Assembly (NCBI GenBank): GCA_951217055.1 | Contig: OX578282.1 | Span: 26,937,657-27,001,656, forward strand | DNA length: 64,000 nucleotides | Source: Gerris lacustris | Taxonomy: Eukaryota; Arthropoda; Insecta; Hemiptera; Gerridae | Direction: 5' to 3' | Shown here: positions 1,841-4,297 of the stretch, piece after piece | How positions within the stretch are numbered: the stretch's first letter is position 1 | How the letters are laid out: every line of letters starts with the position of its first letter | Program-made: the position numbers and the translations under genes | Notes under the pieces: generated by a model | Database searches by the model: none | The model's input: the letters and a program-made list of their open reading frames with translations, nothing else | What the model was told of the DNA's origin: nothing

Positions 1841-3624
1841 ACAGTTCTGTCTTGAAGGAAGGAGACTAGTTTAAATTTACTTCCAGCTAAAGTCAAACAA
1901 ATTCTACTTTAGTATCATGCAGTCCTGTAACATGACTACTTCTGGGAAAATTTCTGTGATAGAATTCCATATTATTCTGTCATGTTAAATTGGAGTATAT
2001 CATATCCTAACCAGCTATAAACCAGCTCAGTGGAGGCGATATGAACCTAGCATAGCTTTGTGCTAAGCTAAGGTATAACAAGATCTTGTAACTCTTGTGA
2101 CTAAAAAATCACCTAAGTCTGTATTTTATGTTTATTTAAAACAAGAACTTTATATTCTTTAAATAAATATATTAACAACATAGCTTTCACACTGAAATTT
2201 GTGAACCCAAAAGCATAAACCAATTTAACATAACTTTTATCATCGGTGTACACTCCTTGTGAAATTGTTTATTATTTATTTATTTTAGGGAACCTTATTT
2301 TAGATAATAGGAGACATAAAAAGATATTTTATTCTTAGGGTGTTATGAAGAGGAAAAATACAACCTTGTAGTTTAACTTTTTCTTCCAATAAATTTCATT
2401 TTCTCTCCAAGATGAGTTTCTCGCTAGAGAACTACAATTTTTTTTTTTGATAGACGAGTGTTTCGGAGGTTGTATAGAGTTGGGGTAGGAAGACCGCTTT
2501 AGGTGGACTGATATTGGGTTTACCCTGGTTACCTGAATTCTCCTTAGAGCCATTACACGCTTGGATTGGCACAATGAAACCATGAGAAGCTTAGCTCGCC
2601 CTATACATCCCAGATTGAAGCACCCTCCCCCCCCTTGCTGCATCCCGTAGAATATTGTGCATACCTGTGTGCATTCTCGGTCCACTGGTCATCCAACCCT
2701 CTGGACCAAAACCCGTCATTCTCAAGGCTTCCTACGACATAAAAACCCTTTAAAAATAAATCTTGGCTTACACACTACCTAGTATGAATTACGCGGAACG
2801 TGACAAGAAGTTATTTTTTGTTATAAATTGATATATCATTTTTTTCTAAATTACTTAAAAAAAAAATTTTTAAACCTTTAAGTAACAAAATATAATCTAA
2901 ATTATAAAAAAAAACTGAAAAGGGTATGAAGCTTAACAGGTTGTAAATTGATATAAAGTATAAAAAGTTGAGGGAAAAAAAATCACCGTTTGATCGACTC
3001 GACCACCCATTATTTGATTCTATACCAAAAAAGATTAATGGCTTAAATATTTTGAAAGTGTCTTTAACAATCCATTCATTTTTTTTTAATTAAGTAATTT
3101 GTAATTTCATTCGAAATTTTATGCAACTCGTTCTGGTCACTCAACCTATAATAAATTTAAAAAAAAAAAAAATCAGAGAGTAATAGTTAATAAGTTCATT
3201 AACAAATCTCCAAATAACTTTAATAAAAATTACCAAGAGAATTACTGCTACAATGTTAATATTCAAAGTCTAAATATTTTTATTTTTTCATTAAAAGACT
3301 TTAGGACGTCAGTATTCATTTATTAGATTATTCAAAGATAGTTATTAAAAATGTATTCATCGTGTTTTTTTTATTTTTAAATAGAAATAAATTAAAGATA
3401 ATAAAATAAAGATAATTTCTTATACTAATGTCAAAGGAAATATTTATAAAATAAATTACCTCAAAAATCTTTTAGGTTTTATTTATACCTTTATATTTTT
3501 TTCTTCAGAAGTTCTTTTTGCTTCAGAATTTGGATAAAAAGAAAATTATAGATCTTTAAAGACCTTTTCTTTTTTTAAAAAAAAAGAAACATTCTATCTA
3601 AATAGAGATTGGTAAATCTTCTTT
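1841..3624. other. Unassigned DNA with one less AT-rich block
   Basis: No gene was supported. The stretch about 2385-2720 is less AT-rich, contains a C8 run near 2626-2634, and gives a 116-codon open frame on the minus strand with no recognisable motif. It could be a fragment of a mobile element, but I cannot name it. The remainder is AT-rich with short A and T runs. Confidence 0.5.
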
Positions 3625-3635
3625 TATATATATAT

Positions 3636-3704
<69 letters not shown>
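3625..3704. repeat. (TA)n microsatellite
   Basis: About 80 bases of TA dinucleotides with one GATA interruption near 3637. It directly abuts the ribozyme-bearing tandem repeat. Open frames of Tyr-Ile repeats here are artefacts. Confidence 0.97.
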
Positions 3705-3705
<1 letters not shown>

Positions 3706-3706
<1 letters not shown>

Positions 3707-4097
3707 TTGTGTAGTGAGAGACACAGGGATGTGCCACGCAAGCGTGACACATAGGAACTGTTCCAACATTAGACTATACGTCACAAAGATGTTGGCTCGG
3801 CATTACGCCATGTCCTGCATCGTTTCGTCGCGTCCGACTCATCAGGGGCCCGACGATGCCCACCCAACTCTGGACCTATACCAACTCAAGAAGATCAGGT
3901 ATAGGGCTTTATCAGAGACGAGCATGCTCTCACACCGCCATTCTTGCTTGGCTGGCAAAACAAATCAGCAATGTAATACAGTGTTTTTGCACACTGCAAC
4001 AAGACACACAAATTGTGTAGTGAGAGACATCAAGGGATGTGCCACGCAAGCGTGACACATAGGAACTGTTCCAACATTAGACTATACGTCACAAAGA
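3706..4097 (-). repeat. 306-bp tandem repeat, retrozyme-like, 1.3 copies
   Basis: The stretch at 3706-3789 recurs at 4012-4097 with near identity (one 2-base indel after GAGAGACA), giving a period of 306-308 bp and about 1.3 copies. The unit is clearly less AT-rich than its surroundings. Between the two repeated stretches lies a complete hammerhead ribozyme core on the minus strand (3817-3859); the second copy stops before reaching the equivalent position. Each copy also carries the small hairpin CCACGCAAGCGTG. Tandem units of a few hundred bases with a hammerhead are the known form of retrozymes, non-autonomous elements whose RNA self-cleaves and circularises. No protein is encoded; the 148-codon frame on the plus strand runs from the (TA)n array into the repeat and has no motif. 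The left edge abuts (TA)n. The right edge is followed by a 10-bp-arm palindrome (about 4089-4110). Confidence 0.75.
3817..3859 (-). ncRNA. Hammerhead self-cleaving ribozyme (type III order)
   Basis: Read on the minus strand, all conserved hammerhead parts occur in order. The 5' strand of helix III is GCATCGT, followed by C17 so that the cleavage triplet is GTC. Then come GGG and CCC (helix I), CTGATGA (conserved core, plus-strand 3839-3845), helix II GTCG with loop GACG and CGAC, then GAAA (plus-strand 3823-3826) and CGATGC closing helix III. Helix III is 7 bp including the U16.1-A15.1 pair; helix II is 4 bp with a 4-base loop. The expected cut lies between plus-strand bases 3852 and 3851. 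Helix III is the open helix, so this is type III. The oddity is helix I: GGG is followed directly by CCC with no loop, so one molecule alone could not fold it. The palindrome GGGCCC could pair between two copies. Activity is inferred, not shown. Confidence 0.85.
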
Positions 4098-4297
4098 CAT
4101 CTTTGTGACTGAGAAAGTTTGTCTGAGTTGTCTCGGACCGATTTTAATTATAAAAATTCAAAGAGAACTATTAGTTGTAGTTATCTTATTGCTTATTTTT
4201 AGAAAACAAACTAAAATTTAATATTTCAGAAAATGAACTAAAATTTAATAATTCATCAAATAAATTAATAATTAATATTAATATTTAATATCCATAG

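Follow-up and report, generated by a model that had tools for sequence, protein, structure and literature searches.

Retrozymes of metazoans are non-LTR elements built of small tandem units that carry hammerhead ribozymes, with a GC content below 50%, no LTR and target site duplications (TSDs) longer than 4 bp, and they are thought to be copied from circles by the reverse transcriptase (RT) of another element (PMC7229834). Their mover was an open question when they were described, and Penelope-like elements (PLEs) were regarded as a "strong candidate" on circumstantial grounds (PMC7229834, PMC7761336). The LTR retrozymes of plants measure 600-1000 bp and possess LTRs with PBS/PPT and a 4-bp TSD; a Gypsy-type mobilisation has been proposed for them (PMC7229834, PMC7761336). 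Among PLEs, reverse transcription of PAc starts at two adjacent internal sites that are not homologous to the cut DNA, and the stretch between these sites is the "tail" of the genomic copies; the PAc enzyme cuts and extends both DNA strands, favours AT-rich DNA and is predicted to form a dimer (PMC11167929). Penelope elements of A. vaga form head-to-head repeats with a 31-bp tail at one inverted repeat and 8- to 10-bp TSDs (PMC3846280). Dimeric hammerheads are known from newt, ASBVd and Aedes aegypti, with an elongated or palindromic helix III (PMC6155905, PMC3088659), and a double form has been proposed for pDo500, a satellite of Dolichopoda cave crickets with a hammerhead in its tandem repeat (PMC2837043). 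The described type III motifs cleave well as monomers (PMC6155905).

The window analysed here, a stretch of 64,000 nucleotides from the Gerris lacustris genome, contains an element (Table 1) that probably belongs to a family of non-autonomous retrozymes mobilised by a PLE enzyme. The first-pass annotation had claimed a tandem unit of 306 bp in 1.3 copies with one ribozyme, abutting a (TA)n array, and this description holds: the minus strand repeats with a period of 306 bp over about 1.27 units, the element holds one hammerhead, and the array adjoins its outer end. Identity to the family consensus (blastn) is 98.6% at 3707-3851 and 96.7% at 3852-4097. With a unit numbering that starts at the base following the predicted cut, the arm has its outer end at position 147 (the normal end A, see below, is 154/155) and its inner 5' end at position 63. 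The first base of the short fold-back piece is common to the minus arm, and we read the window copy as one arm together with this piece as a remnant of the opposite arm. The unit has a GC content of 49%, the only open reading frame of at least 130 aa over the element is a 148-aa frame running through the (TA)n array, and two PLE proteins searched against the window gave no match. The 35 bp beside the element (4110-4144) are 89% like the 3' region of a PLE locus (L107); this stretch could be a common repeat hit by the element's insertion.

Table 1. Features of the retrozyme-like element and its surroundings, in window coordinates
Feature	Position	Strand	Basis
Type III hammerhead ribozyme	3817..3859	-	Rfam RF00008, 42.6 bits, E 5.9e-8
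GTC cleavage triplet	3852..3854	-	motif reading
GGGCCC, loopless palindromic helix I	3846..3851	-	Rfam alignment, motif reading
CTGATGA core	3839..3845	-	
Helix II, GTCG/CGAC, 4-base loop	3827..3838 (3835-3838/3827-3830)	-	
GAAA core	3823..3826	-	
Helix III	3854-3859/3817-3822	-	
Retrozyme-like element, one arm, ~1.27 units	3707..4097	-	blastn to family consensus
One repeat period, 306 bp	3709..4014	-	period mapping
42-nt "tail" stretch between proposed RT start sites A and B, predicted stem-loop; its borders are where outer ends of other inserts fall	3964..4005	-	
ACACAATTTGTGT, near-palindromic tip; forms outer end A in other copies	4006..4018	-	
TTACATTGCTGAT, tip; forms outer end B in other copies	3964..3976	-	
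(TA)n adjoining the outer end, read as target	3625..3707	.	
13-nt fold-back piece ACATCTTTGTGAC, unit ~60-72	4097..4109	+	

All hammerhead parts that had been noticed on the minus strand (triplet, CTGATGA, helix II, GAAA and helix III) could be located in the expected order, and helix III has the claimed 7 bp if the U-A pair beside the triplet is counted. The earlier parts list lacked helix I, which here is a loopless palindrome. By the hammerhead consensus, the predicted cut lies between 3852 and 3851. A covariance-model search of 601 bases (3600-4200) recovers the fold, with the next-best Rfam match at E 0.057, but the score stays under the gathering score of RF00008 (Hammerhead_3; 48.5) because the model wants a looped helix I, while here GGG directly abuts CCC; at gathering thresholds Rfam reports nothing over the whole 64-kb window. 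We nevertheless consider the hammerhead to be far beyond chance, because the assembly holds at least 131 matches to the element and 103 of 114 full-length ribozyme rows retain the complete motif (GTC, GGGCCC, CTGANGA and GAAA). GTC together with GGGCCC is kept in 112 of the 114. These rows come from 39 fetched regions and the window (21 partial ones of 135 were left out), and units of the same array are not independent.

The loopless GGGCCC can pair only between two ribozymes, and a monomer is left without a foldable helix I. Two copies of the motif are predicted to cofold into a double hammerhead (-39.1 kcal/mol), in which GGGCCC pairs with GGGCCC, the two helices III form between the copies and helix II within one. 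The minimum of a single copy (-13.7 kcal/mol) is not a hammerhead, and a hammerhead forced upon it reaches -9.8 kcal/mol. For a tandem transcript whose two ribozymes are spaced by 307 nt, the calculation gives -156.9 kcal/mol for the double form and -152.0 for two single ones, a difference of 4.9 kcal/mol in favour of the double form. The free minimum fold of this transcript, however, lies another 2.1 kcal/mol below the double form, and that of the circle 3.0 kcal/mol below the hammerhead form, which counts against a double-hammerhead step.

Since helix III is open, helix I lies between GTC and CTGATGA, and RF00008 is the best model, the ribozyme is of type III. It therefore differs from the type I hammerheads of metazoan retrozymes and from the minimal type I hammerheads of PLEs, and the earlier reading as a retrozyme-like element stands for the dispersed, apparently non-coding hammerhead tandem unit of retrozyme size and not for the ribozyme type. 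Type III hammerheads, non-autonomy and, putatively, a circle intermediate are shared with the plant LTR retrozymes (PMC7229834, PMC7761336, PMC4918200). As in the dimeric hammerheads, the ribozyme is predicted to be weak or incomplete alone and complete as a pair on one tandem transcript; unlike those of newt, ASBVd and Aedes, which share a lengthened helix III in a type I topology, it shares helix I. PLE hammerheads that cleave as dimers have reportedly been found as well. The arthropod repeat pDo500 is likewise a hammerhead tandem repeat with helix I pairing between two copies, but there helices I and II form between the copies and III within, whereas here I and III form between and II within; moreover, helix I is loopless here, and pDo500 is described as a satellite family. 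It is an uncommon design for a type III hammerhead to be completable solely by sharing a loopless helix I, and this may explain how circles stay closed. Titles, abstract openings and selected passages of the open-licence literature yielded no report of a loopless palindromic helix I.

The earlier suggestion of further genomic copies was borne out. The 937-Mb assembly from which the window comes, in 69 contigs, contains at least 131 matches to the element, on the basis of 40 scored candidates out of 1484. An RF00008 search gives at least 63 matches at E<=10, none of them over the cut-off (68 of 102,652 candidates scored), and all 30 loci cut out from this search hold the 306-bp unit family; one of them (L063) is the same place as L022, leaving 29 model-found loci. 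The B tip followed by (AT)n has 518 exact genome-wide occurrences and the A tip 249, against 1 and 0 for the reversed-pattern controls. From these tip counts, most of them not read individually, the family is taken to comprise about 500 inserts or more. These are short arrays at many dispersed loci, as opposed to the long local arrays of a satellite.

A preference for (TA)n as target is apparent from the flanks, which are near-pure TA on at least one side in 31 of the 40 similarity-found loci and in 46 of all 69. Twelve loci were picked for informative flanks, and eight of them have exact target duplications of at least 8 bp at the outer borders, compared to 5% of mispaired flanks, a count inflated by simple-repeat flanks (e.g., L017, L040, L042, L077). 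The remaining four display border repeats of 0, 5, 6 and 6 bp. Target duplications, here of 8-11 bp, are clearest in L015, L025, L051 and L066, none of which has (TA)n flanks; in L015, L025 and L066 the element ends abut unique DNA. No poly(A) tail was seen on the inserts.

The units were mapped in 69 loci, i.e., the 39 fetched regions and the window (similarity-found) and the 29 model-found loci. The genomic form does contain tandem units, as previously claimed, but they make up two arms joined head to head, in most cases within (TA)n, and the two fixed ends are separated by 42 nt of the unit. Fifty-three of the loci are two-armed, with a minus left arm and a plus right arm, such that the RNA-sense 3' ends face outward ("tail-out"). 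Our script found no tail-in order among the 69 loci; in L021, an additional plus piece lies to the left of the minus arm. The arms range from about 0.1 to 10 units and are of unequal length. Their inner ends are variable, while the outer ends are fixed at unit positions 154/155 (A) and 196 (B): A and B account for 44 and 47 of 122 outer ends, but for 1 and 5 of 125 inner ends.

Of the 27 inserts in which both ends could be typed, 26 combine an A with a B end (binomial against one half, p 2.1e-7), the exception being L045 with two B ends. This pairing recurs in both samples (A+B vs same-end loci: 19 and 1 similarity-found, 7 and 0 model-found) and in both orientations (left A/right B 15 times, left B/right A 11 times). 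The other 42 loci, in which the two ends could not both be typed, are one-armed, decayed or end elsewhere. Our typing drops matches shorter than 18 bases and those wholly within unit positions 136-158. Two discarded typings, by short tips (32 vs 3) and by outermost match (24 vs 2), point in the same direction; both are distorted because the near-palindromic tip ACACAAWTTGTGT matches both strands. An independent test is provided by the tip patterns of one contig (C1), with complete listings of 82 B and 46 A tips, in which 19 adjacent tip pairs lie within 8 kb (0.84 expected by chance). Fifteen of these are tail-out, none of them in previously fetched loci by coordinates, and 14 of the 15 join A with B (p 1.6e-4 given the tip frequencies), the other B with B. 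The remaining four pairs comprise three of the same orientation and one A-plus/B-minus. In three of the C1 inserts the tip matches start just 60-86 bp apart, so that the tips are nearly back to back. At sequence level, two fixed ends, one of each per insert, and tail-out arms are thus established properties of this family. In many loci the A tip (unit positions 142-154) reads ACACAATTTGTGT or ACACAAATTGTGT, a near-palindrome with its middle base as if flipped; the T form tends to travel with other shared variants and may be a sub-family marker.

This architecture places the element between two described groups. With metazoan retrozymes it shares a hammerhead in each small tandem unit (306 bp, within about 150-450 bp), dispersed inserts, an apparent lack of LTRs, and TSDs longer than 4 bp (here at least 8 bp in 8 of 12 loci); mirrored arms, two start sites and (TA)n targeting are features not described in the available portions of PMC7229834. 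Two-armed inserts and the longer TSDs likewise separate it from the plant LTR retrozymes. With PLEs it shares the head-to-head inverted ends, a tail between two proposed RT starts found at one inverted repeat, short TSDs, AT-rich targets, a hammerhead nearby and, presumably, cutting and extension of both strands. PLE start sites lie about 30-40 nt apart with the tail at one end only, comparable to the 42 nt between A and B. Unlike PLEs, the 306-bp unit has no ORF, RT or endonuclease and is too small for a telomerase-like RT with GIY-YIG; the (TA)n preference and a tail unrelated to those of the sampled PLEs are further differences. For retrozymes, neither mirrored arms nor two RT start sites were found reported in the titles, abstract openings and selected passages of the open-licence literature.

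Variants among units bear on the template of the two arms. Within 28 two-armed loci (partial units included), opposite arms have 56 shared vs 142 unshared variants, compared to 452 vs 9856 for opposite arms of different loci; many of the unshared variants within loci are confined to a single unit, as expected of later mutations. Identical full units make up 39 of 42 opposite-arm pairs, 36 of these from L036 (3 of 6 without it), 48 of 80 same-arm pairs (6 of 38 without L036), and 3 of 1589 between-locus pairs. In L036, all 13 full units, four in one arm and nine in the other, are identical. The shared variants demonstrate, as far as such comparisons go, that both arms of an insert derive from one kind of template. 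Heterogeneous arms with mixed units occur in L018, L019 and L043. In the latter, the variants follow a period of three units (0, 3 and 1 differences at lag 3 vs 1, 4, 3, 4 and 5 at lag 1), as expected if the template was a trimer or a linear multimer of mixed units.

PLEs are abundant in the same genome. All 150 GIY-YIG candidates scored, out of 1680 first-look candidates, were above the cut-off, and GIY-YIG is encoded in two open frames, of 846 and 900 aa. RVT_1 is not matched by the 846-aa frame of L082 itself at E<=0.01, although homologs of this frame possess it. Named homologs of the PLE protein come from flies, lancelets, a tapeworm, crayfish, rotifers and a pseudoscorpion; a solved-structure relative of note was not found for the L082 frame. 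The L082 family provides a within-genome control. Of 39 matches ending inside a 501-base query, 28 end at 152-167, five at 122-130 and six elsewhere, and all four inserts with both arms in the two end clusters have one end of each kind. One of the family's inserts (L083) has, by eye, an 11-bp TSD, ACTACGATTAT. We conclude that the PLE enzyme class makes the two-ended, mirrored shape. The six fetched inserts of this family are not in (TA)n, which counts against a PLE as the mover of the retrozyme.

A PLE partner with the retrozyme's tail sequence was not found among 31 loci sampled from at least 150 (five full PLEs, 20 PLE 3' regions and six more). The unit has no match at E<=1 in 26 of them, and the best match to the five others, searched at E<=10, has E 0.13. 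Among tail alignments to 19 PLE regions, L107 gives p 0.027 against shuffles, with 11 of 62 sliding unit segments equally good. The string GTATTA(A)CATTG, common to the B end of the retrozyme and the A end of L082, was rejected as a link (p 0.10 against shuffles, 23 of 62 segments as good). Two PLE copies beside (TA)n, L109 and L110, were likewise dismissed as partner candidates: since these loci resemble each other to the left and right of the (TA)n alike, the array is read as part of that PLE's UTR.

The A and B ends, the tail-out arms and the target duplications are the published PLE signature. Because the retrozyme apparently codes for nothing, it must borrow its enzyme, and the shape of its inserts names the enzyme class. 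Since many non-coding ribozyme inserts show the PLE end structure, the question of the mover of animal retrozymes becomes testable. The A+B pairing also bears on PLEs themselves, whose "optional tail" would seem to reflect one side of a reaction with two unlike ends. Against a PLE mover speak the partner tail that was not found in the 31 sampled loci, the four of 12 loci lacking an 8-bp TSD, the 42 of 69 loci in which both ends could not be typed, the additional plus piece of L021, and the four C1 pairs that are not tail-out.

We infer the following course of events. In a multi-unit minus-strand transcript the hammerhead, whose fold is predicted, would cut at each unit; the loopless, palindromic helix I obliges adjacent ribozymes to pair in twos as a double hammerhead, so that multimers would be cut whereas monomers would not be reopened. 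Monomers, at times di- or trimers, would subsequently close into circles. A PLE protein acting in trans would bind the RNA around the 42-nt tail and make a double-strand cut in a (TA)n or AT-rich site, staggered by about 8-12 bp. On one strand cDNA synthesis would begin at site A, and on the opposite strand at site B, in keeping with the end structure. Each RT may then make up to several laps and stop anywhere, and the joining of the two cDNAs 5' to 5' would result in the observed tail-out, two-armed insert. This detailed scheme (one circle, two start sites for the halves of a PLE-type RT dimer, multi-lap copying of both sides of the break and cutting of multimers only) has, in our judgement, somewhat less than an even chance of being right.

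The main rival accepts a PLE-type insertion but takes the transcript of a linear, multimeric array as template, such that the tandem units would mirror the source array instead of laps round a circle, and the hammerhead would be a relic or have no role in transposition. We regard it as unlikely, albeit to be taken seriously. The period-3 variants of L043 and the mixed units of L018 and L019 fit linear multimers and count against the circle; multimeric circles, however, account for mixed unit patterns equally well. The ribozyme of PAc is dispensable for insertion in vitro, its mutants inserting equally well (PMC11167929). L036 points the other way: such uniformity across two arms requires either a source array free of unit differences or a circle of one unit. 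The retention of the ribozyme in most full-length rows also disfavours a relic, but the family is young and the units of one array are not independent.

Movement by another non-LTR retrotransposon (LINE, R2-like), with inverted arms formed by twin priming, is in our view improbable. Target-primed reverse transcription with TSDs is common to LINEs, and LINE pieces are at hand, e.g., in the window itself, where a minus-strand frame at 5274-6020 matches RNase H and, just below the cut-off, zf-RVT, and resembles a LINE fragment. Twin priming leaves one fixed outer 3' end, whereas the present inserts have two fixed outer ends, one of each kind and separated by 42 nt of the unit, which speaks against twin priming; the ends in L015, L025 and L066 abut unique DNA instead of poly(A), and a PLE family of the same genome has the same architecture. 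Least credible, to the point of being nearly negligible, is an origin of the arrays by DNA-level satellite amplification or inverted duplication, through unequal crossing-over, extrachromosomal DNA circles or palindrome formation. The tandem units would agree with it, and (TA)n is fragile and can form cruciforms. It is contradicted by the hundreds of dispersed ends, the target duplications, the fixed outer as opposed to scattered inner ends and the unequal arms, and a plain satellite was rejected in view of the short arrays at many dispersed loci. Snap-back self-priming of a single cDNA was likewise rejected: it should produce arms of equal length that both terminate at the same unit position, and the arms differ in both respects.

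The sampled PLE loci yielded several further observations. A PLE family represented by L109 (3129-3181), L106 and L110 (824-889) has a (TA)n microsatellite apparently within its own UTR. L109 (1-1307) also contains a 153-bp tandem satellite in 8.5 copies upstream of a PLE fragment, the inverted arm of which holds a minimal hammerhead. Many of the 19 PLE regions display ACCCT-(N)-GACC-(C)A, followed by AGGGAC about 25-30 nt on (near the A end in L082); this motif, of which none was seen in the retrozyme unit, is perhaps the counterpart of the AC-rich stem-loop of PAc. The PLE pLTRs of L079, L080, L082 and L089-L112 contain, as read by eye, hammerhead-like motifs that precede the PLE ends (by 60-95 nt in L082) and occur in three versions: CTGAAGA is kept in L080, L107, L108 and L111, replaced by ATGATTA in L079, L082, L101, L103, L104 and L112, and by ACGTCTA in L089, L090, L093-L095, L100, L102 and L105. 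Despite the lost catalytic letters, the helix sequences and GAAATATAGCC stay and are common to several families.
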